DNA of 64,000 bases from Nautilus pompilius (Eukaryota > Mollusca > Cephalopoda > Nautilida > Nautilidae): assembly GCA_018389105.1 (NCBI GenBank), contig JACATO010001530.1:20268-84267 (forward strand), in the 5' to 3' direction. Every line of letters starts with the position of its first letter. Position 1 is the first letter of the stretch. Of the stretch, positions 5,672 to 60,594 are shown in pieces. Both the position numbers and the translations under genes were made by a program. The notes beneath the pieces were generated by a model that saw only the letters and a program-made list of their open reading frames with translations, was not told the DNA's origin and ran no database searches.

Positions 5672-5730
5672 ATGAAGAAACGGATATTGTTTACTGCAGC
5701 TTTTCTCCTTTCTCTTTATAGTGCGCACGG
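5672..5730 (+). CDS. Gene 1 exon 1: signal peptide
   Basis: The exon encodes MKKRILFTAAFLLSLYSAHG: a basic start, a hydrophobic core and small residues before the likely cleavage site. The donor GTAAGA is at 5731. The two leftover bases GG join the T that opens exon 2 to make Gly. The same 59-bp exon occurs in genes 3 and 4. Confidence 0.85.
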
Positions 5731-7015
5731 GTAAGATGTTTTATGTTTTATACGCAATTAATTTACATATCAATTATTTGAAATAAAGCTTTTGTACGCA
5801 GGATAAATCGGATTAAGTAGATGTACGAAATTATATGCTTTTATCTGCTGTAATTATGCGTGAATACACATCGTCTGAATGCACAACTACACGAGGACAT
5901 CAGTAAAAATATTATATACAGTATATTTTCACCAGTAACTGTTATGTGAAACTTGTTTCACTTCTGTATAATACAATGAGATCTCTAGTCCAGAGACCGC
6001 AAACAGTCTAGACCCCGTCAGCCATACTACATCACAAGATCATTTAATTGACGCTGCCGTTTAATCTAAAAATAATCATTATTTACCTTTTGTGGAGATC
6101 TACATAAAAGATCTGACAAATCGACTGGTGACATTAGAGGGATATGATGCACTCGGCTCGTGTTATCCGACGCCACATTTCCCAACCTCCAAAATGCTAA
6201 CACAAATAAGGAATTTACACAGGTGAGTGAAAATTGTGTCTGTTTCGACTTTTGCTGATACTCACCTTTAAGTCCTCACTGTTTGGAGCATTTTGAGCCC
6301 GGATGCTGGAAGGATGAGCTTTTGAAGAATAAAGATGAGATGTGGCAGATATACATGTGATGAGATGTTACAGGTGGTGAGAGTCTGAACCGGTCAGTCT
6401 GAGAATGTATGGGGATGGTGAATATATATATCGATAGCACGAGGATGGCAGATAATCGGGATTGAAAACTACTGGCTCACCTGTAGAAACAAGGAGACGG
6501 ATCAAACATCACCAAACATCAGTCGTCGGGAATAGCGTTGAGAGGAAACCTTTGTTAAGAATACCGCTGAACTTTGGCAGTCGTACGGAACGAGTGGACC
6601 AGGATTTCACACGTAGCGTGCGATGTCTATTGAGCAGTGAATTGATGTGTGAATAAATTATTCTTCAAAGGGAGGAAGTTGACCCGATACGGACACTAAA
6701 GATGGATGGCCATCGAGCTCCGAGGAAATTAAGTGATACTTTTGCTGTTCAAGACTCAGGATACTTCGAAATTCGTGCGCTGTATAACAATACTTTTCTG
6801 GGCAGAGCCACTTTGCGGTTGTTCCTGACTTTTCTACATTTTGTTGAATTGTACAGGGAAATAAACAGGTGTCGTCAGTTAATCTTTTATTGTCTTCGAG
6901 AGCTTTCCTGGGTCGGTCATTTGAATAACATTTTAAACTGCAGATCTCTGCAGGAGACTATTTCTTAGAATATCGAGTGCTGATAACTTATAATAATAAT
7001 AATAATAATAATAAA

Positions 7016-7063
<48 letters not shown>

Positions 7064-7362
7064 CATACAGCTCATTTTGTTTTCTTACTCGATCGTTCAA
7101 TTTCCTTTAATTCAGTGAAGTCTTGATTTTATAAAAGCATAAATACAGCATCATTCACATCTTCTACAGGTGCATATCTATTTAAGAAGCAGATGTAGTG
7201 TAAGGTAACTTGTTTAAGTTTGACCGAGAACCACACAGTGAGAGGAGATTAACATATATCTACTTTATGGATCTACTGTAGTTTTTAGTTGCATTATCCG
7301 ATTATTTGAAGCAGCTCCAAAATCGTTCGCTCTACATGATCTCTGATCTTTTTCACCTCCAG
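5731..7362 (+). other. Gene 1 intron 1
   Basis: The intron begins GTAAGA and ends CCTCCAG. It contains an (AAT)n microsatellite at about 6990-7062. Much of it aligns, inverted, with intron 1 of genes 2 and 4 (for example the block around 6480-6560 against about 29340-29400). Frames such as 6462-6656 and 6702-6968 have no family likeness. Confidence 0.7.
6990..7062. repeat. (AAT)n microsatellite
   Basis: A nearly pure AAT trinucleotide run in intron 1 of gene 1. The unit 2 counterpart at 36934-37080 is about twice as long. Confidence 0.95.
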
Positions 7363-7630
7363 TAAAGACCACAAAGGACAACTGGTGTCAAATTACGGTA
7401 GGCGAGACCCGAGGCTCGACGACAAGCTAGGGAGGTCTCCGGCGTTTTCGAAGAATGGCGTACGCAGCCTAATCACCTGTGCTGCCATCTGTGAGCAAGA
7501 CGACTCTTGTATGTCCTTCTTCTACAACACAACAGAAAGACCAAGCAATGTCAGGGCCACAACCTCAATCTTGACCACACCGGAACTTATGACAAATACA
7601 AAGGCAGCAAATATTACAAAATGTATCAAA
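7363..7630 (+). pseudogene. Gene 1 exon 2: PAN/apple domain 1, frameshifted
   Basis: The exon is 268 bp, against 263 bp in genes 3 and 4. It begins GKDHKGQLVSNYGRRD and keeps the PAN core CAAICEQDDSC (Cys-x3-Cys-x5-Cys). An extra ACAAC-like repeat of 5 bp after FFYN throws the frame. The original frame continues after it, but with Cys to Tyr near the end. Confidence 0.85.
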
Positions 7631-8820
7631 GTAAGAAACATTCCTATATAAATAGTAGTCGATTTGTTGATTATTCTGCCTCGTAAATGGTATTTCATTT
7701 TATAACCATTTGAAAATTTAAAAAATAGTAGCAAGATGACCACTCTTTCAATTGTGTTCAGTAAGTGAGCACTGGAACCTAAAATCTTGGTTTTCTTAAT
7801 AAATATTTAGTGTAGGAAAATTATGTGAAGAAAGTAAATCAGTATGTAAAATATTTTTGTCAAGATTTTCCGAAGATAGAAACCGTTTTTTTTCTCTATT
7901 TTCCGAATCAATTCCACAATATTCACTAAATTAGTTAATCTTAAATTTAAAATCGGGGAGAAAATAAGACGATTAATTTATGGTGACTTTCTGAATATTC
8001 TTTTGTATATAAATGTCCTTATCAGTGAAATTTTCTATGAGGAAACTCTACTATTCAGGTCGTGAAAATACCTTTTGCCTTAGTGCTGATAGCTGGTGCA
8101 CTAATATCTTCATGGTAGAGGTTCAGTTACCTTTGTATTTTTTGGTATTTTAATGTTTTTGTATGCTATACCATGTAAATGATTGTGCAGTATATTATGA
8201 AAGTCGACTGGACAGGGTTTGACAAGTTGTACCTTTTCCTGCTTTTATTAACATCTTTGATGGTATGCTAGTACATCGATTTCTCCACACGTGTTCCCTC
8301 TCATTGTTTTACAAAATCCTACCAGTTTATGCGAAGAAAATAATTTCTATGCCTAATTAAGTTGAAGGTTTCTTACTTTAGGCACAAATCTTGTTAAACT
8401 TTCCTGATATTCAAATTTCGTTTAGTTTAATTTTATAACTCGGCCGATACAGAAGTTGAAATCATCCAATCGACATTCTGGTTCACGTTTTGAGCCAAGA
8501 TGCCAAGTGCAGAAGAAAGCAATGAACCTTACTATTTTAATAATAGTTTTAAAAGGGTTTTCCTTTTTAACAGGTTTCAAAACTGTAGCCATTTCATTGA
8601 ATATTGACTGATGATGAGAGCTGGAAAATTAATTTGGAAAGATCATCATTGCATCATCCGAACATCCGTCAGTCCATCAGTGTTGGTGAAGTCTCGTAGT
8701 AAACCATCTGTTGTATTGAGAAGGTGGAAAGTTCTTTATTTAAGTCATGTAAACTCTTTGGTGTTAAAACTGGTTTTGAAATCAGTAAAAACAAAGTCTT
8801 AATTTTTGCATTTATTCCAG
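7631..8820 (+). other. Gene 1 intron 2
   Basis: A phase-1 intron, GTAAGA to TTCCAG. It is AT-rich, with no repeat family or second gene recognised. It is nearly identical to 37644-38832 in gene 3. Confidence 0.75.
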
Positions 8821-9078
8821 AACCAAGAATCAGAAACACAAGCAAACACCTCACGGAATTTTCCAATAAAAAGCTTTCCACAAATTTAATGAACGTATTG
8901 AAAGGCATTACAGGTGTGAAAGAATGCATTAAGAAGTGCGGTGAGACAGCGGCTTGTGTGTTCCTCTCCTTTAACCAGAAAAATAGGAACGAATGCCAAT
9001 TTTTCGATGCGGTGTTTCTCAAAGACATTCAGTTTATAGGGGAGAAACAAGGAAATGAATACTACAGGCATGTCAAGA
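8821..9078 (+). CDS. Gene 1 exon 3: PAN/apple domain 2
   Basis: The 258-bp exon reads open in its own frame and keeps the PAN pattern VKECIKKCGETAACVFLSF (Cys-x3-Cys-x5-Cys) followed by NECQFF. It ends at a GTAAGT donor. It differs strongly from the PAN2 exon of genes 2 and 4 and is close to that of gene 3. Confidence 0.85.
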
Positions 9079-10132
9079 GTAAGTAAACAGAATATATGGT
9101 AACCTGTATTCCTTTCTTGAATTAATGATTATTGTGCTTCCATACTTTCAGGATGAATGCTCTCTTGTTGTCATGACACTGCTTTGATTTTGGCCAACCA
9201 ACTTGTTCCATCCATCCTAAAAAGGGTAAAAATCAATTGCCAGTTTAGCATATTGCTACAATTTTCTCTAAAGCTGGAGAATAGATTTCTCTTGTATTTA
9301 ATATCATAATCGATTTATGCCGCCCAAATTCCGTTCTTACCGAAAAAATTTTAAGAACGTAATTTGTAAGTATTCTCATTCACGCCATTTGTCCTGGTAA
9401 CTCTGTTAAAGAAGAATTCTATACATTTCATGCCATTTTTATTAAGTAACCATGAAATCTAACTTCAGCAATTCCGTAAGATCCGGGGTAAAATAACAAA
9501 GATTTCTCTTAAAAAAAGATAATGAACATTTTTCGGAAGGAAGGACGGATGATATTTGGCTGCGGGAGTCACGATTGTTCTGAACTCGCTAAGAACCAAC
9601 TTTAATGCGCTATTAAAGCTGAACCTTCATCGTCACGAACGTTTAAATCAGACGTCGGTTTTATTTACCACAAAATCCTTTGGTGTTCTAAAAATAGCAC
9701 ATTTAGATCATCGGGATTTAAAAAAGATTTTTGGTTGTTTTATTTTGGAAATTTAAACGTTTATTTTTTTCTGGATAAAGTAAATCAGATAAATATATAT
9801 GAATATAATATTTATATTTGCTAGAATTCGTCTGTAATAGGAAGAGGTAACATCAGCAGTTTGTGTGAACACATTCCACTCAAAGTCCAATAACAGGTTT
9901 GCACAGCAGTACAAGAAGGTATCGTTTGATATGCAGAAGTCATCTCGAAATTCCAACGGTTTCCCAATCCAGAGTATCTCTGAGGCATATATTAAAATAA
10001 CGGTCCAGCGAGGTTCAGGAGTCCAGATATTCCATTTGGTATAAATGAGACGAAAATTGAAATTACTTCTCGTTGTTACAGCGATATTTACCAATATTAA
10101 CAGTTTCTATTGGTATTGAAACTGTCTAGAGA

Positions 10133-12737
10133 CAGACATGAGCACCCGCGGCCGCCGACATCCTAATGTGCGGCCCGTTGGGCTTTGGCAAAGTAATTTT
10201 AATTTTCCTGTTTTTCACCTGTCGCCCGCAGGCTCGTCTCTCCCACGGCAGGCACTGTCGTTTGCGTCATAGGCCTCTGCGGCAATCATCACACTGGCAT
10301 CACAGCTCCCGCTCCCCCGTGGCTCCCTGTCGCTCCGCCGCCCTGATGGAAGCGCGGACAATACAGGCAGGCGAAGGGAGCTGGAACTCTAACAGTTGCC
10401 GCAGTAGGACTGACGTAATCGAGCCGCGCTCCCATTGGCTAACCCCATTGGGGCCGGTGTAAAGACTTCAAGCTACCCCCGGTAATCTGAACGCGATGGT
10501 GACTAGGGGTAATCTGAAATTGCTACACTGGTAGCTACAAGACTGGGACCTCGACGCCTGCGGGGAGCACTCGGCAAGGAGTAGACAGGGACTCGGGCCG
10601 GACGCAAACTAGCCAGCTCAGCTCTTGGCCAACTTGGGCACCAACAACCGGCAACATTGTCACGTTTCCATTGCTAAGAGAGTGAGAATAGGGTGCATCA
10701 TCACGTGTAGCAAATTTGAGTGCATGTCGGGATGTTTCTGACCATCAGACATGGACTCAGAGAAGGAAAAGCGAAAAGTAGAGGATGGATCACGCAAATT
10801 CAACGATAGGTGGACCTCAGAGTGTTTCTTCACCAGTGTTAAGGAGACAGCAGAATGCTTAATTTGCAATGAATCTGTGGCTGTACTTAAAGAATATAAT
10901 GTCAGGAGACATTATGGTACAAAGCATGCATCTAAATATGGTACCCTTCAGAGCCAGATGCGGAAAGATAGAGTGAGGAAATTTGAAAAACATCTTGCAG
11001 GCCTACAAAATCTCTTCAAGAAATCCACTGCTGAGGCAGACATTTCGGTGCTTGCCGGTTATTTAGTCTCCAAAATCCTGGTGATGGTGAGATGGTGAAG
11101 GAATTCCTTGAAGTTGTGGCTGATGTATCATTTCCTGAGAAGAAGGCTATTATTTCAAAAATTAGCCTGTCAAGGTTTACTGTGGGTAGGAGGGTACACG
11201 ACTGTCAAAGAACATTGAAGATATCCTGAAATGCAGAGCATCAAATTTCAAGTGGTTTTCCATAGCATTGGACGATGGCACTGACGTGTCCCATTTAGCT
11301 CAACTGGTTGTCTTCATTCGAGGTATTGATACTAAATTTAACATAACCGATGATTTAGCGGGTATGGTGAGAATGATGGGCATAACAACCGGTGCGGATT
11401 TGAAAGAAGAGTTGGTGAAAGTACTGAAGCGGTTGGGGCTACCTTTAAAGAGGCTGAGTGGCATTGCAACTGATGGGCCCCATCAATGGTTGGAAAGAAC
11501 AACGGCTTAACAACTCTCATCTCTCAAGAAGCTAGGGCTCTGACTGGTCGTGAGTTAATTTTGTGTCACTGTTGCATCAAGAGCAGTTATGTACAAAATC
11601 ACTGGGGATGGAAAATGTTGTTGCAGTTATTGTGAAGCTTGTGAATTTCGTCAGATCAAATGGACTGAATCATCGCCAATTCAGAAAGTTGCTGAATGAC
11701 ATGGCATCTGATTATGGAGATGTGGTTTGTGATGCTGAATTGCGATGGCTAAGTCTTGGTCAGATAATCAAGCGAATTTATGATTTGAAGGAAGAAAGTG
11801 AACTTTCTTAGATATGAAGGGGAAGAAGCCAGTGAAGGAATTTGGCGATCGCGGTTGGATGTGCGATTTTGCATTTTTGATCGACCTTCCTAAGCATCTC
11901 TGTGAACTGAATCTGAGGCTCCAAGGAAAGGATCAGCTCATCCACGCCATGTTTGACAAGATCAAGGCATTTGAATCCATGTTGTCGCTGTAGGAATCAC
12001 AATTTCGCTCCAATAACCTTGTTCATTTTGAAAGTTTGAGGAAGGAGAATCCAGATGATTCTGCAAAATATGCAGGAGATTCGGAAACTGAAAGATAAAT
12101 TTCACTTCCGTATTGAAGATCTCAGAAGATGCGAGGACTTCAACATCTTTTCCATTCCTTTCGATGTCAGTGGTGAAAGTGCACCTCCAGAGCATCAAAT
12201 GGAGCTTCTTGATCTTCAGTGTAGCACTGAAATGAGAGCAAAATTCCGCGATGTGCCGCTCATTGACTTTTACAAGCTCTACCTACCAAGGAAGAGTTTT
12301 CCCGAATTGTCAACCCTCGCTTTGAAGATGGTAAGCCTGTTCGACAGCAATTACATCTGTGAGCAATTTTTTTCAAAACAGCAGGCGCTGAAAAACAAGC
12401 ACCGAAATCGGCTGTGAGGCGAACGCATGGAGAGCTCCTTGCGCATCGCAACGTCTCAGATCGAGCCGGACATAGAAAAACTTGTGAACGAAAAGAGTCT
12501 AGTGTCGCATTAAGCTGCTTACGAAGTAGTATTAATAAAAATCGTCAAACAATATATATATTTTCTTTTATTTTGGCATAAAAATAACTTTTATGTGTCA
12601 TAAAAGTGGTGGTTATGGAGGATGTTGGTACTCAGCAGGCTTAGAGCCTGCAACTCCGTAAGAAAAATGCATGTGGCCCTCCAGAAGCCTACGAAGTTCA
12701 CTAGTGGCCCGCATCATGAAAAAGTTGCTCATCACTG
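10133..12737 (+). mobile_element. Degraded hAT element with GTF2IRD2/ZBED-like transposase, unit 1
   Basis: The right end is a hAT-like terminus, ending ...GCTCATCACTG at 12737. The left end, proposed at CAGACATGAGCA (10133), is a weak match to it, and no 8-bp target duplication is seen, so the left boundary is uncertain. Inside is a broken transposase at about 10751-12417. The 10205-10460 part resembles the reverse complement of the hAT MITE at 20050-20764, so both may derive from one family. Confidence 0.65.
10751..12417 (+). pseudogene. hAT transposase pseudogene (GTF2IRD2/ZBED-like), unit 1
   Basis: The frame starts at ATG 10751 with a BED-like zinc finger near residues 35-56 (CLIC followed by HYGTKH). 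The frame then breaks several times. Recognisable stretches continue at 11268-11510, 11563-11811 and 12055-12417. The C-terminal part (LFDSNYICEQFFS, then HRNRL) fits the hAT dimerisation region. A stop inside the 11.9-12.0 kb part and several indels rule out a working enzyme. The family call rests on remembered similarity to GTF2IRD2/ZBED5-type proteins. Confidence 0.75.
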
Positions 12738-12766
12738 GTTTAAAAGATGGACACTGTTTCTATATA

Positions 12767-13367
12767 CAGTCGACCCCAGCGTAATCGCGGTTCGGCATTC
12801 GTGGCCCCGGTTATTCGCGGAATTTTCTTTAAAACCTACCTAATAATTGTTCGTGGAAACCCTCGCAAATTCGCGGAATCGCAAATATCTTCCCCGATTT
12901 TCATATGAATTTTTTCGTGGCAATATATATTTTTTTCAAGTTTTTTAACGCTAAATTATTAATACCAATATAATTTACTAATTTTGTAATATAAATACTA
13001 ACGTAAATTCAGCAAAATATGAATATAAAATATACGCTATTGGCTGGAGGTTTGAAAGTAGCCAATCCGAGAGCGTTATCCATTTCTCTTCGCTGCTGAT
13101 TGGCTGCTGCTCACGAGGCGCTGTCTCAGGCAGATGCAGCCCAGCATCATCCCAGTTTACCGCGTCTAGCTATCACGAGTGTTTCTCTGAGTGTTGTATT
13201 TTTTATTAAATTATTATTATATATTTACTTATATTTTTAAATTATAATTTACGTTATATTTTGACGTTTATAGACATTTTTATGGACGACGTCCAATATT
13301 CGCGGTTTTTTCACTCTTCGCGGGTGCTCAAGGGACGTAACTCCCCGCGAATACCGGGGGACAACTG
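12767..13367. mobile_element. Pogo/Tigger-like MITE, unit 1
   Basis: The element runs from CAGTCGACCCC to GGGGGACAACTG and is flanked by TA on both sides (12765-12766 and 13368-13369). The termini are imperfect inverted repeats rich in CGCGG/CCGCG words. There is no transposase. The TA duplication and CAGT...ACTG ends fit the pogo/Tigger group of Tc1/mariner elements. Confidence 0.75.
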
Positions 13368-14593
13368 TATACACCAAAGTTTTCCACACGTAGTCTACAG
13401 CTGATTAAGATCTCTATGACTGAAAACCATCGTCCGAACTGCTAACTCTGACTCGTGGCCTTATGATTTTACTCTAGGTATATGATGCCATAGTGCCTTA
13501 TCTACCTGTGGTATTATTACCTGAGCTTTATCGTTAGACACTGAAACCTTTGAATCTAGCGATGGTAGGGTCACGAGCGTGTACACCTCGAATCTCGCAT
13601 AATTTAATAAGTCGGACAGCGATGGATGGGGACAGTGAGAGCTTAGTCGTTGAATAGAATTAGTCTTCTGCAACCGTTGAAACTGACAGTGTTTTCGCAG
13701 TTTGTCGGCTCACAGATTTATGTCCACGATGAGTAATGTCAGCTGAATAGAATTATTCTATTAGCTGCTGCCAGAGGATAACTTCTAGCATTTACACGGC
13801 TTAGGAGACGAATCTCTCTCTACATAGCAAAGACCGAACAGGTTAAGCTGGAAAAACGTGTACGGACTCTACCAGGAGGAGAATGATGGTGATTTTAGAG
13901 GTGAACATAACCAACGATACACTTAGTGTCAAAACTGCAGAAAGTGAAGACATCCAGGTAAATGAATCAGTATTTTCAACTATTTGACAACAGTTGGGTG
14001 AATTTACTCTACAATTTTTTTTGGACCTTCTGCTCTATAAATTGAAATATTTCTTTCGCCTCTGGACGCATTTTCTTTACATCTGGATTACTGAGCTATT
14101 TGCATCTTATATGCTGCCTGGGTCGTCCGACAACTCTTTAGTGTTTTTCTAATAATTTTTTTCAGGATTTACGAATATATTATTTGGTTTATATATTGGC
14201 TCTAACAAATCCTTAACACAGGCCAAAATGTTGTTCTCATCATTAAGTAGTCTTTACCGAACAATCTGTCGTTTGTTTCTTTCATAAGAGTCATATACGG
14301 GTATAATGATATATTTTGCTGAGTTCAGATATAAACATGTTATCTAAGATCCACTATTTGGATTCTAAAATGCATACATCGGTTAGTGAGAAAAACACTC
14401 TTCCTTTCAGAAATATAAAACTCTACCCTGCAAAGATGAGAAATATATCACTGAACTCTCTACACATCATGAGGTGTCACCATACTTTGATGCTGCTACA
14501 CCTTCTGTCCCGTGTCCATCCATCCTCTCTTGCTGATGTTGAAAATTTCCTGTTTTTTATTATAAATTAACAAGAATGATTATTAATGTATAG

Positions 14594-14779
14594 GTTTCTG
14601 TGATGAAGACGAAAGCTTCATCAGCTATCCTAATGCAAAGACCTGCTTCAAATTTTACCTGGACAATCTTACCTGGGAAGAAGCGAAAGCTAAATGTGAA
14701 TCTCTGGATGGTCATCTTATTACATTAGAGGGTGAGAATGAAGATAACGCTGTGCAGTACACCATAGGATATGCCGGAT
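14594..14779 (+). CDS. Gene 1 exon 4: CTLD first part
   Basis: The 186-bp exon carries the first three CTLD cysteines: FCDEDES, KTCFKFY and KAKCESL. TWEEAKAKC is the usual alpha-helix motif. The first two cysteines mark a long-form CTLD. The exon ends IGYAG at donor GTAAGC with one base carried over. Confidence 0.9.
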
Positions 14780-15781
14780 GTAAGCAGCAGTTTTTCCTCT
14801 TTTAATTCACTTTTTCTTGCAGTTAAAGTTTGCGAAATTAAACTTTTCGAACATCACGCATTTTAACAACTGAATTCCGCTGAGCTACATATTTTTGTCC
14901 TTTTATTCGCGATGCGATGCCGTTGGTAGACCGATTGTCCTGTAGTGTCTCACTAAAGTAAATACTATAGAAAATAAATTGGTGGAGATTCGACCACGTA
15001 AGGGTTAATACAATCGAATCTGTTCTTTACCGAGAGACCTGATGCGTTTAATGCCTCGAACTTTCGGATGAACTAAAAGATAGATCAGCTGTGGTATCTG
15101 ATTAAAAGAAAAGGGAATATAAATTTAATGCGACGAAACTGTGGTGAAAAATTTCAAGCCAGTTTTGTTAATTTACCCATGATGTTACCAGTCTGGAAAT
15201 AAGAGAAATGAACAGGGACATTAATAATATTTCACGGTTAGGAAAATTTGAACTAAACCTATAAAATATAGAGAAACAAGTAAAATAACGTTGACATTTT
15301 GAGGGAAATTTTGATTCTCGGCTACACTCACAGAAGCTAATTTCATAAACATACTTTCTAAACATTTAGTTAATTTGAAGTTTAAATAAATAGATTCCTA
15401 CATTCTAGTCTCGCATGCATTGTTTAAACAAAATAGTATTGGTTGGAGTTTTACTGTCGGTTTCTTTTTGAGTATAAAACCTACTTAAAGATTCGTAAAT
15501 GTCTTCAGATAGTTTTATAAATCTCGTGGTGCCTAAAACCTTATATTGAATGATATATAAAGACATTAACCGAATGACGTAAGTAAACAGGCTTAAAATC
15601 ACAGAAAGGGTTTCTAAATCATTCTTATTACTATCGATGTATAATTCTTATTTTAATAGTTAAAATTTATTTTAACATAAAATACTTACAGTATTTTTTA
15701 GGTAAAACAAAAACTATCTACTTTAAAATGTTAGCCATTTAGGTTACTTAGTCTGTTATTATGCCTGTCTGTTTCTATTAG
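14780..15781 (+). other. Gene 1 intron 4
   Basis: A phase-1 intron inside the CTLD, ending TTCTATTAG. It is AT-rich with no repeat or gene recognised. Gene 3 carries the same intron at 45006-46008. Confidence 0.8.
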
Positions 15782-16017
15782 ATGATTACAGGAGTTATCA
15801 TATTGGAACAAGGAGGAATAATGCTGGGCAGTATGTATACCTGAATGGTGATCCAATTGTCTACAGCAACTGGAAAAACGGCAAACCTGGAGAGGGAGAC
15901 GACCGACGCTGTGTGCACCTTAAGTTTGGTTTCTACAGAGGTAAATGGGAACCTGTTGACTGTTACACTGTCCGAGAGAACTTCATCTGCGAAAAAGATT
16001 TCAAATCGCCTTATTAA
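15782..16017 (+). CDS. Gene 1 exon 5: CTLD second part and stop
   Basis: The exon encodes the CTLD C-terminal half. HIGTRR stands where the WIGL-type motif normally sits, then come DPIVYSNWKNGKP, RRCV, KWEPVDC and NFICEK, and the protein ends KSPY. Three cysteines complete the six-cysteine long-form set. The usual EPN or QPD sugar-site triplet is absent (KPGEGDD instead). Confidence 0.9.
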
Positions 16018-16194
16018 CATGTCAGTAGTACTCTTATTGGCGATCATTACAAAAGATATGTATTTGATAGGATGTGACAAACTTTGGTATCCATGGGAAT
16101 TTTCTGTGAACCTCAGGTGCACCATTCAATCTCAAGCTTCTGGAAAGAAGTTTCAGAGACCAAGTGGATGCAATCTGTGCCTGATGTAATCCCT

Positions 16195-16200
16195 AATAAA
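16195..16200 (+). terminator. Polyadenylation signal of gene 1
   Basis: AATAAA lies 178 bp after the stop codon and is conserved after gene 3. Confidence 0.55.
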
Positions 16201-17544
16201 ACTGTTTAGTTGTTTCACTGTTCTGTTCAGACGTTAAATGATTGTGAAAACATTGAAGATGAACAGTTCAAACTGTCGTAACAAACTTAATGATGTATTT
16301 TAGGAAATTAAATTCAAAGTGAATTCTTGCATAAAATTACGGCTTTATACTTGTTTTTTATTGTAAAACATTTTATGAATATTAAATAATTTTGTCATTT
16401 AAATGAAGATGGATCACCACTTTTAAAAATAAATTTTAAAAATTCGTTTTTCACTTAGTTTTGTGAGTTTTTGTTACACAAATTTAAATAAATGTTTGAC
16501 GTTTTGGGCGCTAATTGTTTTTTGTTTTTTCCTTTACAATGCGATATATATATATAAGTGATGTGCAATTCCGTATTGTTTTAGACAATTTTAGCACTAT
16601 GTATTTGAATTATTTACTACTCACAAATATTAAATATTTATTGGCATTTTGCAAGTCAATTTGGCAAAAGAGTAAAATTTTTATTTTACATAAGTTATTG
16701 ATTTCCTTCTTTCCTTCAGTGAAATATCGAGATGCAAGCATTCAAATGCGCTGGAAAAAACTGTAATCAGTAGTTAGCAGACACCAGTTGTTCTCTCGAT
16801 GTTGGACATGACAGGAAGGAGTCCTATAATTTTATAGTAGAAACTACTGACTAATTTCACACTTGTTCTTTTAGCTGTAGTGATAAAGAGCTGCGTGCGT
16901 AACTGCTATTAGTCGTTGTGACAATGCATTAAACTGATCTCCTTACAGTGCAGGATATCTGATATAAAGAGAAAAGCATCCAAAACTTATACCACCTGAA
17001 ACAAGCTAGGATGCGTTCTTTGAATATCCACGAGAAATCGTAAAGAAAAGGTCACAATAAACACTTGCAGGAGACAAGCCGCTTGATCTAATAAATAAAA
17101 ACAAAGTATATTTTGGTTCCTTTCTGCAGGTATAAGGTCTCCATCAATAGTGATTTTTCAGATTGTTGTTTATGAGGAGAGTTTTCTGTCCTTATTACCG
17201 ATAAACCAAGTATATCTAACATTTGAAATGCACCTACTATGTAAGTTAAATGCGTTCCATATCTTCCATACTGCTTTTATCAGTCTTTCTCATGCATCTG
17301 TTGTCTGATCATGACAAATATGTTCACATTAAGCATCTGAATACCAAACATTGTTGTTCAAGATTTATATAGTTCATATTACATAAGTCATAATATAGCG
17401 CTGGTGGTGGAATTCCTCCATATCAAAAACCTGACGTCCCAGCCAAATTCTGATCACAGATTTGAAATCAACACCCAGAATTTAGCTAAGATCACCCACA
17501 TTTTGCTCAGTGGCAGACAAAAAGTTCCATTTTGTTGTCCAGTT

Positions 17545-18500
17545 TTATCTGCCATGTTCGTGCTGTCGTTATAGGACACCATGGCCATACATTCTCAGCT
17601 TGACCGGTTAACACTCTCAATACCTATAATTCCTTACCACTTATCGCAGCTATTTATTCCACATCATCTTATTATTTTTCAAAAGTAAATCCTTTCTCGC
17701 ATCCGCACACAACATGATCCAAGCAGACGAGAATTTCTCATGAATATATAAGCAAAAATCAAAACAGATATGTTTCCACTCACCTGTGAAAATTCTTTAT
17801 CGGTATAAACCCTTTACAGGTAACAAATAAATGTAGTGATGTTTGGCATGAGCGGAGTGGATATTTATCTAATGTCACCAGTAGATTTTATATCTTTTGT
17901 GCAGATCTCCACAAAAGGTGAAATGATTTTGGGGCAAACAACAACGTTAGCAAATTGATTATATGATTTGATTTGGCTGATGCTGAACTAGACTATGTAC
18001 GATCACTGTTCTAAATGTCTTATTCTTTATAGAGAAGTGAAATAGATTTTATAACTTTTGCTGGTGAAAATGTAGTTTTTACAATATATAAACTGATGTC
18101 CTTCAGTAGTTTTTATTCATATGATGTTTTTCATGTGTGATTTCAGTAGATGCAATCATATATTTAGGCTATTGTACCTAATCAAATTTATCCTGACTAC
18201 AAAAGCATTAACTTAAATAATTCATAAGAGAATGTAACCAATCTTACCCATGTCCATTATAAAGTGTCAAGATAAATGCTACAGTAAACAATAATTGTTT
18301 CTTCTTCTACAGTGAGAGATCCGATAACCAAGTTGATGCTCTCTTGAAATGTACCTGAGATTTGTTTGAGTGAGGTTTGCAAGCCTCTATGTCTGCAGTG
18401 ATTGGACCGATTCTTCTGACTGATTTACTCTGCTCATTAAAAGACTGAGATCAGTTAAGGAAAGGTTCCGCTCTTGTTCTGACAGTAGAAACAATATAAA
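17545..18500 (-). pseudogene. Truncated lectin gene head (promoter, exon 1, part of intron 1), unit 1
   Basis: On the minus strand this block aligns with the promoter, exon 1 and intron 1 of genes 2 and 4 (compare 29450-30400). The exon 1 equivalent at 18248-18306 is 59 bp long, stays open (KKQLLFTVAFILTLYNGHG) and keeps a GTAAGA donor. The start codon is AAG instead of ATG, and a TAG precedes it. The CRE octamer has decayed. No PAN or CTLD exons follow, because gene 1 3' flank begins by 17137. It is a fragment of a fifth gene. Confidence 0.7.
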
Positions 18501-37002: not shown

Positions 37003-37019
37003 TAATAATAATAATAATA

Positions 37020-37052
<33 letters not shown>

Positions 37053-42963: not shown

Positions 42964-42992
42964 GTTTAAAAGATGGACACTGTTTCTATATA

Positions 42993-44819: not shown

Positions 44820-45005
44820 GTTTCTGTGATGAAGACGAAAGCTTCATCAGCTATCCTAATGCAAAGACCTGCTTCAAATTTTACCTGGACAGTCTTACCT
44901 GGGAAGAAGCGAAAGCTAAATGTGAATCTCTGGATAGTCATCTTATTACATTAGAGGGTGAGAATGAAGATAACGCTGTGCAGTACACCATCGGATATGC
45001 CGGAT
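44820..45005 (+). CDS. Gene 3 exon 4: CTLD first part
   Basis: 186 bp and open. It differs from gene 1 by only a few residues (for example DSL for DNL and SLDSH for SLDGH). All three cysteines are kept. Confidence 0.9.
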
Positions 45006-46008: not shown

Positions 46009-46245
46009 ATGATTACAGGAGTTATCATATTGGAACAAGGAGGAATAATGCTGGGCAGTATGTATACCTGAATGGTGATCCAATTGTCTACAGCAACTGG
46101 AAAAACGGCAAACCTGGAGAGGGAGACGACCGACGCTGTGTGCACCTTAAGTTTGGTTTCTACACAGAGTAAATGGGAACCTGTTGACTGTTACACTGTC
46201 CGAGAGAACTTCATCTGCGAAAAAGATTTCAAATCGCCTTATTAA
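46009..46245 (+). pseudogene. Gene 3 exon 5: CTLD second part, truncated
   Basis: 237 bp against 236 in gene 1. It is identical up to FGFY, then reads Thr-Glu-stop at 46170-46172. The KWEPVDC and NFICEK segments remain downstream in another frame. Confidence 0.88.
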
Positions 46246-46428: not shown

Positions 46429-47769
46429 ACTGTTTAGTTGTTTCACTGTTCTGTTCAGACGTTAAATGATTTGTGAAAACATTGAAGATGAACAGTTCAA
46501 ACTGTCGTAACAAACTTAATGATGTATTTTAGGAAATTAAATTCAAAGTGAATTCTTGCATAAAATTACGGCTTTATACTTGTTTTTTATGGTAAAACAT
46601 TTTATGAATATTAAATAATTTTGTCATTTAAATGAAGATGGATCACCACTTTTAAAAATAAATTTTAAAAATTCGTTTTTCACTTAGTTTTGTGAGTTTT
46701 TGTTACACAAATTTAAATAAATGTTTGACGTTTTGGGCTCCAATTGTTTTTTTGTTTTTTCCTATATGATGCGATATATATATATATATAACTGATGTGC
46801 AATTCCGTATTGTTTTAGACAATTTTAGCACTATGTATTTGAATTATTTACTACTCACAAATATTAATTTTATTGGCATTTTGCAAGTCAATTTGGCAAA
46901 AGAATAAAATTTTTATTTTACATAAGTTATTGATTTCCTTCTTTCCTTCAGTGAAATATCGAGATGCAAGCATTCAAATGCGCTGGAAAAAACTGTAATC
47001 AGTAGTTAGCAGACACCAGTCGTTCTCTCGATGTTGGACATGACAGGAAGTAGTCCTGTGATTTTATGGTAGAAACTACTGACTAATTTCACACTTGTAC
47101 TTTTAGCTGTAGTGATACAGAGCTGTGTGCGTAACTGCTATTAGTCGTTGTGACAATGCATTAAACTGATCCCCTTACACTGCAGGATATCTGATATATA
47201 GAGAAAAGCATCCAAAACTTATACCACCTGAAACAAGCTAGGATGCGTTCTTTGAATATCCACGAGAAATCGTAAAGAAAAGGTCACAATAAACACTTGC
47301 AGGAGACAAGCCGCTTGCTCTAATAAATAAAACAAGCTATATTTATGTTCCTTTCTGCAGGTATAAGGTCTCCATCAATAGTGATTTTTCAGATTGTAGT
47401 TTCTGAGGAGAGTTTTCTGTCCTTATTACCGATAAACCAAGTATGTCTAACATTAGAAATGCACCTACTATGTAAGTTAAATGCGTTCCATATCTTCCAT
47501 ACTGCTTTTATCAGTCTTTCTCATGCATCTGTTGTCTGATCATGACAAATATGTTTCACATTAAGCATCTGAATACCAAATATTGTTGTTCAAGATTTAT
47601 ATAGTTCATATTACATAAGTCATAATATAGCGCTGGTGGTGGAATTCCTCCATATCAAAAACCTGACGTCCCAGCCAAATTCTGATCACAGATTTGAAAT
47701 CAACACCCAGAATTTAGCTAAGATCACCCACATTTTGCTCAGTGGTAGATAAAAAGTTTCATCTTGTTG

Positions 47770-48730
47770 TCCAGTTTTATCTGCCATCATCGTGCTGTCG
47801 TTATAGGACACCATGGCCATACATTCTCAGCTTGACCGGTTAACACTCTCAATACCTATAATTCCTTACCACTTATCGCAGCTATTTATTCCACATCATA
47901 TTTTATTTTTCAAAAGTAAATCCTTTCTAGCATCCGCACAAAACATGATCCAAGCAGACGAGAATGTCTCATGAATATATAAGCAAAAATCAAAACAGAT
48001 ATGTTTCCACTCACCTGTGAATATTCTTTATCGGTTTAAACCCTTTACAGGTAACAAATAAATGTAGTGATGTTTAGCATGAGCGGAGTGGATATTTATC
48101 TAATGTCACCAGTAGATTTTGTATCTTTTGTGCAGATCTCCACAAAAGGTTAAATGATTTTGGGGCAAACAACAACGTTAGCAAATTGATTATATGATTT
48201 GATTTGGCTGATGCTGAACTAGACTATGTACGATCACTGTTCTAAATGTCTTATTTTTTATAGAGAAGTGAAATAGATTTTATAACTTTTGCTGGTGAAA
48301 ATGTAGTTCTTACAATATATAAACTGATGTCCTTCAGTAGTTTTTTATTCATATGATGTTTATTCATGTATGATTTCAGTAGATGCAATCATATATTTAG
48401 GCTATTGTACCTAATCAAATTTATCCTGAGTACAAAAGCATTAGCTTAAATAATTCATAAGAGAATGTAACCAATCTTACCCATGTCCACTATAAAGAGT
48501 CAAGATAAATGCTACAGTAAACAATAATTGTTTCTTCTTCTACAGTGAGAGATCCGATATCCAAGTTGATGCTCTCTTGAAATGTACCTGAGATTTGTTT
48601 GAGTGAGGTTTGCAAGCTTCTATGTCTGCAGTGATTGGACCGATTCTTCTGACTGATTTACTCTGCTCATTAAAAGACTGAGATCAGTTAAGGAAAGGTT
48701 CCGCTCTTGTTCTGACAGTAGAAACAATAT
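47770..48730 (-). pseudogene. Truncated lectin gene head, unit 2
   Basis: The duplicate of 17545-18500. The exon 1 equivalent at 48481-48539 again has AAG in place of ATG with a TAG (48540-48542) before it, and an open hydrophobic signal-like frame ending LYSGHG. The donor GTAAGA is kept. Confidence 0.7.
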
Positions 48731-54084: not shown

Positions 54085-54304
54085 TTAAAATTTTTTTTCA
54101 CAAATATATTGCGTATAGACTGCGTCACAGCTAACAGCTTCCCAGGAACATTTATAACTGGTGCACAGAATAGACACACAGCGTCGGTTGTCCTTTGCGG
54201 TTTCCCGTCTTTCCAGTCGCTGTACAGAATAGGATCTCCATTTACGGAAACATATTGTCCTCCATCGTTCCTTCTTATTCCAATATGGTAATGCATATAA
54301 CTAT
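54085..54304 (-). pseudogene. Gene 4 exon 5: CTLD second part, frameshifted
   Basis: 220 bp against 224 in gene 2. YHIGIRRNDGG and DPILYSDWKDGKPQ are kept, then a 4-bp loss changes the frame before RRCV. Confidence 0.88.
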
Positions 54305-55613
54305 CTAACAAAGACAGAAAAGACAGATTGGTCTTATAAACAGAAATCGAGAAACTTCTGAAATCATAATATAAAAAATTGATTTCTAACCCTTTGCTCC
54401 ACTGTAGACAAATTTAACAATATTCAATTTGTAATCGATCTATCAGCATAAAAGTTAATATCAGATAAGGAAATTACCTGGATAATTTTCGAAAGTAATT
54501 ACTTTTATGTAATCTTAGAGAAATCCAAAAACTGTTTCCTGCTTTGACGCCTTGGCAGTAAGAAAATAAAGGTAATGATGGAATATCAGTGATGAGAAAA
54601 GTCTGAAGAGTCCTCTCTGTGTTTTGAAGCCTATTTCATTACATACTCTGGTTAACGGGTTTAGACCTCTTTCAATATAAGGCTTTGTCCGTCAAGTCTT
54701 TTTATGCATATTATCAAATTCATTTATTTCTGAAGAATCGGAAAGAGTTTACATAAAACTAACAATTTCTACAGTTTTCACCAGTATTATTCGATCAAAC
54801 CAGTTATCTCCAGTCTCAAAGATTACCACAATTTTAAGGAGTAATAATTTTGATACTAGTTCCGATAAGAGTAGATGAGAACGAACATTTACCTTCAAGC
54901 GTCGCTACTTTTTAAACCGTATCTCCACCTTTTATAGGTCTAATAACAGTTATCTAAAATTAATATTACTTTTGTATATTTGTAAATTTTCTAAATTTTT
55001 ATGATTTTCAAACTGGCTTTATATCATTTAATAGTTAACAAAACTCGTTAACAAATTCAAGTTTCGGTGCGACATTAGAGTGTATGCAATTCTCTAAGAA
55101 TGCCAAGTATAAACAGGTGAATCGTCTGCCTAGAAACTTGAAGAGTTGGAGCAAACAAGGGCATTAACCCCTTAACTAACCAACAGATGTTCGTCAAGTC
55201 ATTTCAGAATTAATGTGATTATTATTGCTACTTATTAGTAACAAGGAGCAACAATTAACCCCTTAACTAACCAACAGATGTTCGTCAAGTCATTTCAGAA
55301 TTAATATGATTGTTATTGCTACTTATTAGTAAGATCAACAATTAACCCTTAACTACCAACAGATGTTCGTCAAGTCATTTCAGAATTAATATGATTATTA
55401 TTGCTACTTTATTAGTAACAAGGATCAACAATTAACCCCTTAACTAACCAACAGATGTTCGTCAAGTCATTTCAGAATTAATATGATTATTATGCTACTT
55501 TATTAGTAACAAGGATCAACAGGTATGCTAAGTGCACAAGTAATAATTCAAGCTACCACAGTTCGATCGATACAAATAGGAGATATGAAAAAAAGAGAAA
55601 AGATGCTTCTTAC
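54305..55613 (-). other. Gene 4 intron 4
   Basis: Contains minisatellite A (55165-55522); otherwise AT-rich. Confidence 0.75.
55165..55522. repeat. Minisatellite A, about 4 units
   Basis: Units of about 85-92 bp with CCAACAGATGTTCGTCAAG. Fewer but more regular than in unit 1. Confidence 0.9.
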
Positions 55614-55799
55614 ATCCTGAATTTAGTATAGTGTTTTCCACAAAATTCTCTACTTCTTCAGTATCGATTGCAATCAGTTGTTCATTCCTGGTCTGGCATT
55701 TTAGTTTCGCTTCTCCCCAACTACGACTTATCTGGTATAACTTAAAGCAAGTGTTTGCAGCAGGATATTTGACGTAGTTTGGGTCTTCGACACAAAAAC
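55614..55799 (-). CDS. Gene 4 exon 4: CTLD first part
   Basis: 186 bp and open. Begins FCVEDPNY (YCVEDPNY in gene 2), with NTCFKLY and SWGEAKLKC; donor GTAAGA. Confidence 0.88.
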
Positions 55800-57531
55800 C
55801 TAAACGATAAGAAGGTTATCTTATTTAATAATTTGTTAACCCTTTCGAGACCACTGACATACATGTCAAACCTTCAACACCAGCAATAAGAGGGGATGAG
55901 AAGAACCCTAGAACCTGACGCAACCTTTTCTGTTTGCAAACAGTTCGAAAAGCGCGAAGATTCGAGTAGTTAGATCGACACCTTTTTCTCACCTGTTGAC
56001 ATAAAATTCATATAAAGACTTTGTGAAACAATTATATATTTATTTTGTTTTGAGAACGGCAAAGGTAATTTTTGGAGAAAGGTCGATGATTTTTTATTTG
56101 AAAGTCTAACCCGGTGATAGTTCACGTGGTGCACATCCTTTTAACTATGCAGAGGACACGGAACGTCTGTAGACTGTCTGTAAACAGGGCATTCAGCTTA
56201 ATGTGGCAACACCTGACTGATGATGTGTCGCTCCTAGTAGGCAGCTACCAGGTCATACTAGCTGATGCATTTACTAACTGTATCAAAATATATTTGATAA
56301 TTTCCCTGGTAAATCTGTCATTTATTTGCTTCGAAAGGGAATATAATAATCGCATTATTATTATTATTCATTTCAAAGTTTTCTATAACTCTCGAGCCAA
56401 AACCTATTGGAAAATGGTAGATACAGTTCACAGGTAACCATAGCATCCCCGCATGCAGATCCCCCTCTTCCCATTGCCATGTAACCGACATACAGACTTA
56501 CTCCTCCAGCAAAATGTTTATTTCTGCACTGAGGTGAACTTCGAAATGGTCAGTTATTTTATTTCGGCCTCCACGTGGTTTCTGTATTTAAACGTGTCAG
56601 GTTTATTCACCAAAAATAAACTGAAGCAGAATTTTATTAAACAACATTAACAGAACAAATGGTGCTAATAGGGATATTTACTGGTGAAGATTTCAAACTT
56701 TCTTATGGAGTAAAAGGATTTGTACAGCATAAAATGAGGGTGTTGTTATGCATAAGAAACAGGGACATCCTAACATGGACCTGGCAATAGGGACGATTAG
56801 GGCCAAAAGGTAAAGGGATATCCTGCTTACAGGAAGACCTAGCATAACATGGACCTGGCAATAAGGGATGATTAGGATCAGATGAATAAAGGATAAAGGA
56901 ATGATTGACTACAGGGAAGGAGTAGCATAACATGGACTGGCAATAAGAGAAGTTTAGGATCAGAAGGTAAAGGATAAAGGAATGACTGATTACAGGGAAG
57001 AACTAGCATAACATGGACTGGCAATAGGGGAAGATTAGAGCCCCAAGGTAAAGGGATATCCTGCTTATAGGGAAGACCTAGTATAACATGGACCTGGCAA
57101 TAATAGAAGATTAGGATCAGAAGGTAAAGGATAAAGGAATGACTGATTACAGGGAAGGACTAGCATAACATGGACTGGCAATAAGAGAAGATTAGGATCA
57201 GAAGGTTAAGGATAAAGGAATGACTGATTACAGGAAGAACTAGCATAACATGGACTGGCAATAGGGGAAGATTAGAGCCAAGGTAACATGAAGCCATGAG
57301 AGAATCATTATAATATTATTTTAGATTCATCTGTGATTCCATTTTTAAAGTTTGTACGATTAAAGAAAATACGAGTCTGAAGTTCTTTTACATTTATTAT
57401 TATTTTAAGAATAATTATCAAACTAAATCTTCAACTGAACAAATTTCAACTTTATACAACAAATTATGAAAATTATCGAGTTTGCTAATTGAAAGTGGGG
57501 AAACATGACTGGGGAATTTTTGCTTACTTAC
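55800..57531 (-). other. Gene 4 intron 3
   Basis: Contains minisatellite B (56755-57290); nothing else recognised. Confidence 0.75.
56755..57290. repeat. Minisatellite B, about 7 units
   Basis: Units of about 80 bp with TAGCATAACATGGACTGGCA variants. Longer than the four-unit version in unit 1. Confidence 0.92.
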
Positions 57532-57789
57532 TTTTGTTATGTCTGTAAAATTCCGATCCAGGCCATACTAAGTAAGCCTGTAATCCTGAGAGATACACGT
57601 GTAAATACATTTTGCAGGTTTCTCTGTCTCTTTGGTTGTAATAGACGGACACACATCTCGGTTTTACCCCACACTCCTTCAAGCATTCTGCTGCACTTGG
57701 CACGTAGTGCAATTCTGTGAGTACACCTTCCGGTATGTTGCGGCCAGAAAACACCGAAAGGCGTTTCCCCGCAGGTTTAACGTCCGACT
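57532..57789 (-). CDS. Gene 4 exon 3: PAN/apple domain 2
   Basis: 258 bp and open: SGRNIPEGVL, AECLKECGVKPRC, ETCKMY, YRHNK. The PAN cysteine spacing is kept while most other residues differ from gene 3. Confidence 0.88.
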
Positions 57790-59064
57790 CTAATAAAAAT
57801 TTAAAAAAAAAATGAGAATTAATTTCATACTGATTCTAAAAATCCGAAAGATCGTCCAGGTGGCATGACTGCAGTAAATAACAGAGCACCTGATGAAAAT
57901 GTCAGGATGGTCTACTGATGGCGCCTTACAAGTTACTTGCCAGCTCACAAGGACAGTAATTGGATCCGGAAGTGTTGGAATATTCTAGAGGTTCCCTTTG
58001 AAGCGATAATAAAATCAGTAATAGATTTGTCAGTTCGTATAATATCTGAGGCGCACTCGGTGATCGGCCCGTCTCTGACGTCAGCACGTATTTACTGTGC
58101 TCTTCAAAGCGAGGCTGGGAAATCTGACTTCAATTTTGTGCTCGCAATGGCGTATAAAGCGGAGATGTCAACACGGCCGGCCTCCCGAGCTTATATAAGC
58201 CCTGTTCAGATAAATTATTGAGGTCTCTGCTGCTCGAAATTCTCGGTGGACCGATAAAGAAAGCGTTCGATTAGTGACCACAGGTAGATTCGCTGGCTCA
58301 TTTTCAGTCGTTTAAAAAAAATTTTTTAAGTGACGTCAGAGGAGTCGGTTAGCGATAATTGTCTTCACATGGACCGGAGAGCTCTTATCTGGTCTGTCTT
58401 GAGAGCCACCACGAGGTGAAAGGTTTGTGGAAACTGTCGTAGCTCTAATACAGCGAAGAAGAAGATAGGAGCTTGACAGCTTGCAATATACTCGATAACG
58501 TTGAGAGTTCCTAGTAAGAATAATAGTAGCGTTTCGATAAGAAATAATGGTACATATAACATAAATATAGCAGTACATTCGGAACAATGGCTAAAGTAAA
58601 TGTATATTCCCGATTGGAGAAGTAGATTATTCACACAGTAAACTTTACTGACTGAACATTTTCTCTTAAAAGTGTTTGTAAAATGGATAAGAATCTTCGT
58701 TTTTTGACTTTCCTGCTGGTTTTTAAAACATTTTTGAATACCTAATTAAGCTAAAATCATAGGCTATTTCTTTTAAAAAATAAAAAGGACTGGTTTCCAA
58801 TTATGTACACTCTTATAATGCATATACGAAAAATCTGGGCAGAAAGCGGATAGTTGTCGATCATCTCTCCTGACAACTTTGCTGCACTACATTATTTGTT
58901 GGAGAAAGAGCAATGTTAACTCTTTCATGCTGACTGATTGCAATTAGCAGAGAGATTATTTTGACGTTTTACGATCTGACAAAGTCTATTAATTAAAGTA
59001 ATAACAATTATTATGCAATCTAAACAGCAAAGCGTCTAGAAAGAAATATATGAAGGGTTCTTAC
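57790..59064 (-). other. Gene 4 intron 2 with a plus-strand promoter-like block
   Basis: Counterpart of 27439-28704. The promoter-like motifs are at 58076-58338. Confidence 0.6.
58076..58338 (+). promoter_or_regulatory. Promoter-like block in gene 4 intron 2
   Basis: TGACGTCA 58076-58083, TATATAAG 58192-58199 and TGACGTCA 58331-58338. About 340 bp after the last octamer a short plus-strand frame begins MDKNLRFLTFLLVFKTFLNT, which looks like a signal peptide but stops at once. Confidence 0.35.
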
Positions 59065-59327
59065 TTTCATACATTCTGTAATATTTGGTGCCCTCACATT
59101 TCTCAAAGTGTTCTGTGTAGTCGAGACTGCGGTCGTGGCCCTGACATTGTCTGGACATTTTGTTGTAGAAGAAGGACGTACAGGAGTCGTCCTGCTCACA
59201 GATGGCAGCACAGATCGGAAGACTGCGTACGTCATGTATTGAAAACGCCGGAGTTGTTCCGAGTTTGTCGTCCAAAGTCAGGTCTCGCCTCCCGTACTTT
59301 GACACCATCACTCCTTTCTTGTCCCTG
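59065..59327 (-). CDS. Gene 4 exon 2: PAN/apple domain 1
   Basis: 263 bp and open: VSKYGRRDLTLDDKLG, CAAICEQDDSC, RQCQGHD, EKCEGTKYYRMYE. Acceptor TTCTCAG (a 3-nt alternative is possible), donor GTAAGA. Confidence 0.9.
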
Positions 59328-60535
59328 CTGAGAAGAAACAGGAAACCTGGTGTCATGTATTGAAAAATAGAATAAAGCAAATAGGAATTAAAGGAGACCT
59401 ATATGCTAGAGTATGTATAATAATTCAGAACTCTGTATAAACGTTAGGACCAACAGAAAAGAGGCTCTGTCCGGAAACGTATTGTAGTGGAGCGAGATGG
59501 TCAAAGCATCTTGAGTCTGGATCCAAAAAAATGTCACATAATTTCCTGGAAGCTCGACCAGAGTCTATAATGTCAATGTCGGGTACATCCTGCTCCCATT
59601 ATAGAATATAATCTGCTCACACACCAACTAGCTGCTCATGAAACATCGCACGCCACGTGTGAAATCCGAACCACCCATTTCATAAGGCCGCCGAACTTCA
59701 GCGGTATTCTTTCTATACATGAGATTCCTCTCATCGTTATTCCCGACGACTGATGATCCGGTCGTGGTTGACCTACCGAGTAGCATTTATTTATTTCTAC
59801 AGGTGAGCCAATAGATTTTTATCCCAATTATCTGCCATCTTTGTGCTGTCGCTATAGTTCACCCTGCCCATACTTTCTCAGACTGACCGTTTAAACCTCT
59901 CAACTCGTATAATTAATTACCTTTTATCGCAGGTGTATCTGCCATATCATATCCTTATTAATCAAAGTCCCATCCTTCGCAGCATCCGCACTCAACACGA
60001 TCCACACAGGCGAGAATGGCACGTGAACATACGCAAAAGTCGAAACAGGTATGCTTCCACTCACCTGTGAAAATCCTCTATTGGTATATACCCTTTAAAG
60101 GTAGAAAGATGTGGTGTTTAACACGAGCCGAGTGCATATTTTTTGAACCGTCACCAGACTATCGTCTGTGCAGGTTTCCACAAAGAATAGAATAATTTTT
60201 TGGTAAACAACAAAGTTACCAATCAATTATATGATTTAATTTTGATGATGCAGGAATAGACAGTGTACCATCTCTGGAATGAGGGTCTAATTATATATGC
60301 AAAAGTGAAACAAGTTCCACATAACAGTTACTGGTGAAAATATACTGTATATAATATTTCTACTGATGTCCTCGTGTAGTTGTGTATTCAGACGATGTGT
60401 ATTCACGCATAATTACAGCAGATACAAGCATATAATTTCGAAAATCTACTTAATCCGATTTATCCTGCGTACAAAAGCTTTATTTCAAATAATTGATATG
60501 TAAATTAATTGCGTATAAAACATAAAACATCTTAC
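59328..60535 (-). other. Gene 4 intron 1
   Basis: Counterpart of 28967-30173; no gene or transposon recognised. Confidence 0.75.
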
Positions 60536-60594
60536 CCGTGCGCACTATATAGAGAAAGGAGAAAAGCTGCAGTAAACAATATCTGTTTCTTCAT
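60536..60594 (-). CDS. Gene 4 exon 1: signal peptide
   Basis: MKKQILFTAAFLLSLYSAHG, identical to gene 3 exon 1; donor GTAAGA. Confidence 0.88.

Follow-up and report, generated by a model that had tools for sequence, protein, structure and literature searches.

Convergent genes for putative secreted PAN-PAN-CTLD proteins in a probably young, tandemly duplicated locus of Nautilus pompilius

Does the genome of Nautilus pompilius carry an established array of four genes whose secreted products combine two PAN domains with a single C-terminal C-type lectin-like domain (CTLD), as a preliminary description of this stretch of DNA proposed, or do the four loci have a simpler and younger origin? We analysed 64,000 bases of contig JACATO010001530.1 (assembly GCA_018389105.1, positions 20,268 to 84,267 of the forward strand), referred to here as the window, which contains no N. 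Self-comparison with blastn showed that the window is mostly made up of two tandem copies of a ~30.2 kb unit that are 95-96% identical, with a spacing of 29.9-30.35 kb in the 20 repeat families listed, one of which has an additional copy at 219-518. Each unit carries a gene A on the plus strand and a gene B on the minus strand, with their tails facing, giving four loci at 5672-16017 (A1), 30233-23856 (B1), 35617-46245 (A2) and 60594-54085 (B2). What had been read as an array of four is thus a single convergent pair (A with B) in two tandem copies, so that the loci, places and convergence described previously were upheld while the number of distinct genes fell to two. Because the duplication is recent, it accounts for the common exon plan within A1/A2 and within B1/B2, and only the agreement between A and B counts as independent evidence. 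The preliminary description was largely right in treating these as real genes and in its outline, but it missed the 30-kb duplication, the apparently homogenised 5' arms and the frameshifts described below: the locus is better called a duplicated pair than an established array of four genes, and it is broken as assembled.

That the array continues past both edges of the window, as had also been suggested, has indirect support from its flanks. At the left edge, positions 1-718 (plus strand) repeat the 3' flank of gene A a third time, matching 16421-17137 and 46650-47368 with 94.0 and 94.6% identity; such similar distances to the other two mean that this part exists in more than two copies. On the right, a 5' arm runs to the last base, and no further gene was seen at either edge of the window. 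Between the third 3' flank copy and the first 5' arm, positions 719-2083 have no listed match of at least 250 bases elsewhere in the window and could mark a unit boundary.

All four copies follow the same five-exon plan (signal, PAN1, PAN2, CTLD-a, CTLD-b), with exons that we placed by splice sites together with the alignment of A and B. In agreement with the shared plan and phases noted before, all 16 modelled introns have GT...AG boundaries, and the junction phases 2, 1, 1, 1 are common to the copies. Intact exons measure 59, 263, 258, 186 and 236 nucleotides (nt) in A, and the last exon of B is 224 nt long to its stop codon. The junction after CTLD-a reads GGAT/GTAAG in all four copies and is the sole choice giving the phase that CTLD-b requires; another candidate donor, CAG/GTTTTC, was rejected because A1 lacks it and because it would put CTLD-b out of phase. 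On the plus strand, A1 comprises a signal-peptide exon at 5672-5730 (59 nt, MKKRILFTAAFLLSLYSAH, donor phase 2), PAN1 at 7363-7630 (268 nt instead of 263, a +5 frameshift in which ACAAC is repeated), PAN2 at 8821-9078 (258 nt, open), CTLD-a at 14594-14779 (186 nt, open) and CTLD-b, including the stop codon, at 15782-16017 (236 nt, open). The corresponding exons of A2 lie at 35617-35675 (59 nt, same sequence as in B2), 37381-37643 (263 nt, open), 38833-39090 (258 nt, open), 44820-45005 (186 nt, open) and 46009-46245 (237 nt, +1 frameshift). On the minus strand, B1 starts with a signal exon at 30174-30233 (60 nt, with a +1 frameshift and an in-frame stop), followed by PAN1 at 28705-28966 (262 nt, frameshifted by several indels, net -1), PAN2 at 27182-27438 (257 nt, -1 frameshift), CTLD-a at 25491-25676 (186 nt, open) and CTLD-b with its stop codon at 23856-24079 (224 nt, open). 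B2, also on the minus strand, has its signal exon at 60536-60594 (59 nt), PAN1 at 59065-59327 (263 nt, open), PAN2 at 57532-57789 (258 nt, open), CTLD-a at 55614-55799 (186 nt, open) and CTLD-b at 54085-54304 (220 nt), where a -4 frameshift leaves the frame open with an altered tail. The full product would have ~330 residues, and all five exons are intact together in none of the four copies. A tblastn search of the window with seven exon queries (E<=1) recovered every one of the 16 PAN and CTLD exons that were expected; its remaining matches were all weak, with no further convincing PAN or CTLD exon among them.

The exon joins and Pfam searches on the joined exons both supported the secreted PAN-PAN-CTLD architecture. 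PAN_1 (PF00024) scored above its cut-off of 21.4 bits in all four intact PAN exons submitted (28.5, 26.8, 26.5 and 26.5 bits), and PAN2 of A1, searched within its join, was slightly below it at 20.4 bits. PAN_3 gave 22.2 bits in A2 and 21.4 in B2 against a cut-off of 21.1, with A1 slightly below at 20.9. On the joined CTLD exons, Lectin_C (PF00059, cut-off 22.6) reached 56.5 bits in A1 and 44.3 in B1, covering positions 2-107 of the 107 in the profile. PAN1 of both A and B shows the spacing C-x3-C-x5-C plus further cysteines, which are candidates for the two disulfides of the PAN/apple core. A long-form CTLD carries an extra N-terminal cysteine pair in addition to the four canonical cysteines, and the A1 join has all of these, in FCDED, KTC, AKC, RRC, VDC and ICE. 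When the join of PAN2 and CTLD was compared with solved structures using phmmer, the best 60 of 137 matches all lay over the CTLD, with the phospholipase A2 receptor first and mannose-receptor-type proteins and a collectin among the others.

Calling these proteins lectins goes further than the sequence does. EPN/QPD and WND are the motifs of calcium-dependent sugar binding, and at the corresponding positions of Ca site 2, which we located by eye by matching the KP column to the EP of one mannose-receptor domain in the alignment, A reads KPG and B reads KPQ, while WND is replaced by WEP or WEA. Since the canonical motifs are absent, the name "lectin" is unproven and sugar binding should not be assumed. 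A signal peptide, recognised by eye, and the domains point to a secreted binding protein, and a role in immunity, mucus or surface binding or adhesion is plausible from what is known of such domains. The best reading is a fast-turnover family of putative secreted recognition or adhesion proteins.

How old are A and B, and have they been under selection? Between them, synonymous divergence (Ks) is 0.91-0.99, nonsynonymous divergence (Ka) is 0.37-0.41 and Ka/Ks is 0.41, with PAN2 the most diverged exon (Ka 0.63-0.68) and PAN1 the least (0.20-0.24). In intact copies, the exons of A and B are nevertheless equal in length (PAN1 263, PAN2 258, CTLD-a 186 and CTLD-b to B's stop 224 nt) at an identity of only 53-78%, although picking intact copies favours equal lengths. 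Equal exon lengths at a Ks of ~0.9-1.0 and a Ka/Ks of 0.41 therefore indicate that selection maintained the reading frame during most of the time since A and B split. The earlier view of a fast-evolving family is supported in part. Between A1 and A2, PAN2 carries 17 nonsynonymous and 3 synonymous changes, an excess over the local flank rate of 36 per kb, which was estimated by eye (P=0.0016), and over the whole-unit rate (P=9e-5), but nonsynonymous against synonymous changes were not significant (Fisher P=0.77). The 20 differences are those of an ungapped alignment; blastn shows 17 substitutions and 2 indels by way of two cancelling gaps. Conversion from an unseen paralogue would give the same picture.

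Outside each gene lies a noncoding repeat, the 5' arm R, of which 1.9-3.4 kb is seen and whose orientation is inverted beside A relative to B. By self-comparison, the arm of A1 occupies 2084-5484 (plus strand) and has inverted copies beside B1 and B2, at 30482-33171 (minus) and at 60832-64000 (minus), the latter reaching the right edge of the window; the arm of A2 lies at 33504-35381 (plus). The B1 and A2 arms form the left and right halves of a palindrome across which these two genes stand head to head, with a CA-rich tandem-repeat tract near the centre at 33.0-33.5 kb. CA-rich tandem repeats are found both there and at arm ends, and (ATT)n tracts lie directly upstream of three of the four gene starts (A2, B1 and B2), with a shorter ATT run upstream of A1. 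Over ~3.6-5.85 kb of A1, which takes in the upstream region, the 5' untranslated region (UTR) and the signal exon, A and B are 91-99% identical in 250-base windows, and this identity drops abruptly to 71-80% in intron 1. In the same windows, A1 and A2 are 92-99% and B1 and B2 91-100% identical. The four arms are 91-99% alike among themselves whatever the unit, and the signal exons of A2 and B2 differ at 0 of 59 sites. The near-uniform upstream region and signal exon in A and B, with the abrupt loss of identity in intron 1, are new here. Likeness of the 5' arms of A and B beside mature exons that are old would be the mark of homogenised inverted arms.

No coding signal was found in the open reading frames (ORFs) of at least 60 codons tested in the 3.6-5.7k part of the arm. 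We rejected a coding gene at 5161-5514 (minus strand; with counterparts in the other arms), where the proportions of synonymous and nonsynonymous differences (pS and pN) were both 0.043 over six arm pairs and where Pfam gave no match at E<=1. A shorter frame at 5051-5242 (minus strand) gave a pS of 0.047 and a pN of 0.017 (13 and 15 changes), which we took as chance among the seven frames tested. In addition, blastn, alignment and tblastn revealed in each unit a relic third copy of the 5' exon and intron 1 that has lost its start codon (17545-18465 on the minus strand, and 47777-48698 in the second unit). It is 68-74% identical to the A and B 5' regions, and tblastn found no PAN or CTLD exon behind it.

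Taken together, these results are rather better explained than not by a young tandem duplication of a convergent paralogous pair, A and B, encoding secreted PAN-PAN-CTLD proteins, with homogenised 5' arms and with frameshifts that are partly consensus error. In such a locus, each of A and B would be built for a secreted protein with a signal peptide, two PAN domains and a long-form CTLD, and adjacent units would meet head to head across the palindrome. Recombination between the inverted arms, by gene conversion or unequal exchange, would hold the upstream region, 5' UTR and signal exon near-uniform in A and B, and the mature exons past intron 1 would have diverged since the old A/B split. All copies may be under common control and follow a common secretion route. 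The partners of the PAN domains may be proteins or glycans, and that of the CTLD a ligand on a surface, bound in a way that is probably not the classical sugar mode of Ca site 2; PAN2 possibly changes fastest. Copy number and copy integrity would turn over rapidly, and some of the frameshifts would be consensus errors of a repeat that is hard to assemble, with B1 the likeliest case, whereas others may reflect genuine loss of function. More tentatively, the palindrome itself could drive a cassette system in which gene conversion unifies the inverted 5' arms, with promoter and signal peptide, up to the intron 1 boundary, the mature PAN-PAN-CTLD part diverges, PAN2 fastest, and copies are gained and lost as 30-kb units. 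If the arms are truly homogenised up to that point, the locus would offer a direct view of a recognition family that keeps one programme of expression and secretion while its binding parts diverge.

Are the frameshifts then errors of the consensus or real decay? Outside the exons and the listed tandem repeats, the two units differ by 726 substitutions and 206 indels, and with the exons included, 168 of the 219 indels outside tandem repeats are of one base. The ratio of substitutions to indels falls from 13:1 at 3.6-9.1 kb to 2.7:1 at 26.6-33 kb, and to 1.5:1 in 25.1-26.9 kb, which is rich in tandem repeats. Compared with the relic 5' copy at 47776-48575 (~780 aligned bases), B1 has 18 one-base indels and B2 has 5, although substitutions run at 232 per kb in both, and compared with its twin at 17544-18342 the counts are 21 and 6. 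In the 5' arms, private substitutions and short indels number 117:8 in the A copies and 127:38 in the B copies (Fisher P=8.5e-5). The B exons (982 nt) carry 8 substitutions and 9 indels against the background of 726 and 206 (Fisher P=0.006), and in the blastn alignment PAN1 of B1 and B2 shows 0 substitutions and 4 indels. Because the one-base indels are not accompanied by additional substitutions, part of the frameshifts, those of B1 above all, may be consensus errors. A B1-B2 Ka/Ks of 1.04 was not used, as MAFFT had aligned the slipped PAN1 stretch as substitutions. We also discarded the low ratio of transitions to transversions (0.75) as proof of error, given that older comparisons within the window likewise gave 0.7-1.0.

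Several findings weigh against this combination of functional genes and faulty consensus. As assembled, all four copies are frameshifted, so that none shows the unbroken frame expected of a functional coding gene. The A1-A2 exons have a Ka/Ks of 1.02 and 30 substitutions where 28 are expected, which amounts to no constraint overall and also fits dying genes. The +5 of A1 and the -4 of B2 are atypical of single-base errors, the A1 insertion repeating the adjoining 5-mer, and error is not confined to B1, because the indel excess reaches into 9-25k. Moreover, the B half itself has few substitutions (17.6 per kb) and many indels (14.1 per kb), both as the mean of 12 windows, omitting two tandem-repeat windows, and on this local background the B exons have 8 substitutions where 17 are expected (P=0.011) and 9 indels where 14 are expected. 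This is mild constraint on both, and the B exon counts therefore back error less than the whole-unit counts do. Consensus error remains likely for B1; the frameshifts of A1, A2 and B2 may be either error or real decay. In repeats of this kind a consensus error is hard to tell from the true death of a gene, and counts of copies and pseudogenes from draft assemblies are therefore unsafe.

The most serious rival, though a rather unlikely one, is that the cluster is dying, with all four copies pseudogenes or null alleles and the working family members elsewhere. The frameshifts in every copy and the relaxed A1-A2 comparison would be as expected, as would the relic exon with its lost start codon in each unit. 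Against this, the intact exons of A and B keep their frame at a Ks of ~0.9-1.0, the broken exons differ between A1 and A2 and between B1 and B2 with none broken in both, the one-base indels of B1 come without extra substitutions, and the substitutions in the B exons are fewer than in their surroundings. It is less probable still that the second unit is a haplotype that the assembler joined on in tandem, in which case each chromosome would really carry one A and one B. The units are ~2.5-4% apart in substitutions, with many short indels, a level also found between alleles of highly heterozygous invertebrates, and their junction falls within the tandem-repeat tract; but the absence of N from the window, the third copy of the A 3' flank, which raises the count above two, and the likeness of the four 5' arms irrespective of unit all speak for a real duplication. 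Equally doubtful is the idea that the arms are alike with no gene conversion in the palindrome, R being a dispersed repeat from which the genes recently gained a new promoter and signal exon. The want of coding signal in R and the lone relic 5' copies at 17.5-18.5k and 47.7-48.7k would fit this, but in each of the four comparisons of A with B the likeness spans the signal exon and splice donor and ends within intron 1, and the relic, being only ~70% alike, is not the recent donor.

Given the probable duplication of a PAN-PAN-CTLD gene pair, is such a locus without precedent? The combination of domains, called unusual in the preliminary description, loses some of that distinction because Caenorhabditis elegans class IV comprises 16 genes with one or two CTLDs and one or two CW (PAN_3) modules, with none in six other nematodes; according to that source, a CTLD together with a PAN module had been found in nematodes before (PMC5297725). 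The predicted proteins of the window are alike in joining a CTLD to one or two PAN-type modules, but they score best with PAN_1 and only about at the cut-off with PAN_3, and the comparison covered domain content. Bivalve C-type lectins resemble the locus in being multi-copy CTLD genes with lineage-specific expansion; in the text of that paper, "PAN" occurs once, in "pan-genome", and "apple" 0 times (PMC10140915). Sea urchin Sp185/333 clusters are comparable in that they hold similar genes, are difficult to assemble, have segmental duplications with short tandem repeats at their borders and are proposed to undergo gene conversion (PMC5103432). The segmental duplication seen here is likewise edged by short tandem repeats, a likeness rather than a membership; Sp185/333 encodes other proteins, and a section title of that paper states that there are no pseudogenes, in contrast to the broken copies assembled here. 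Long inverted repeats of C. elegans contain inverted homologous gene pairs, divergent or convergent, whose repeat structure seems to be actively maintained; unlike those pairs, only the 5' arms stay alike here and the gene bodies have diverged (PMC1803023). In the literature that we searched, mostly without subscription papers, we found no description of a PAN-PAN-CTLD array, and phrases such as PAN-CTLD occurred in 0 papers. Overall, this appears to be a recognition-gene family that is young and rich in repeats but belongs to a known kind.

The PAN2-CTLD intron of gene A contains transposon remains, which we take to be hAT-like, at 10742-12414 (plus strand) in A1, where Pfam zf-C2H2_12 scored above its cut-off at 10742-11095 alongside ORF evidence, and at 40986-42884 (plus) in A2, where an ORF matched DUF4371 below the cut-off. 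The highest level of substitution between the units, 89 per kb, was seen in the 500-base window at 10.5k. In windows of this size, 15500-25000 differs from its copy ~30.2 kb on by 2-36 substitutions per kb, mostly closer than the outer parts of the unit (22-60 in 3.5-9k and 27-46 in 30-33k), as if the unit were of mixed age or its middle more recently homogenised. Near the B CTLD-a and PAN2 exons, at 25144-25400, 55163-55521, 26644-26923 and 56771-57286, lie minisatellites (periods 84-91 and 81 bases) whose copy numbers differ between the units.

Finally, no RNA families or tRNAs were found in the window, and of 107 stretches in viral contigs that matched a pattern, 0 were confirmed as relatives. 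Four Flavobacterium phage records matched the CTLD part only, at 28% identity, and have no bearing on the PAN-PAN-CTLD architecture. Among prokaryote genomes, 2 of 75 stretches were confirmed, one (L001) over CTLD residues only and the other (L002) over query residues 168-300, which leaves the architecture unaffected. L002 (678-4352) encodes a protein from a Verrucomicrobiales bin in one open frame of 1224 codons, with a kinase domain, Lectin_C and leucine-rich repeats but no PAN.

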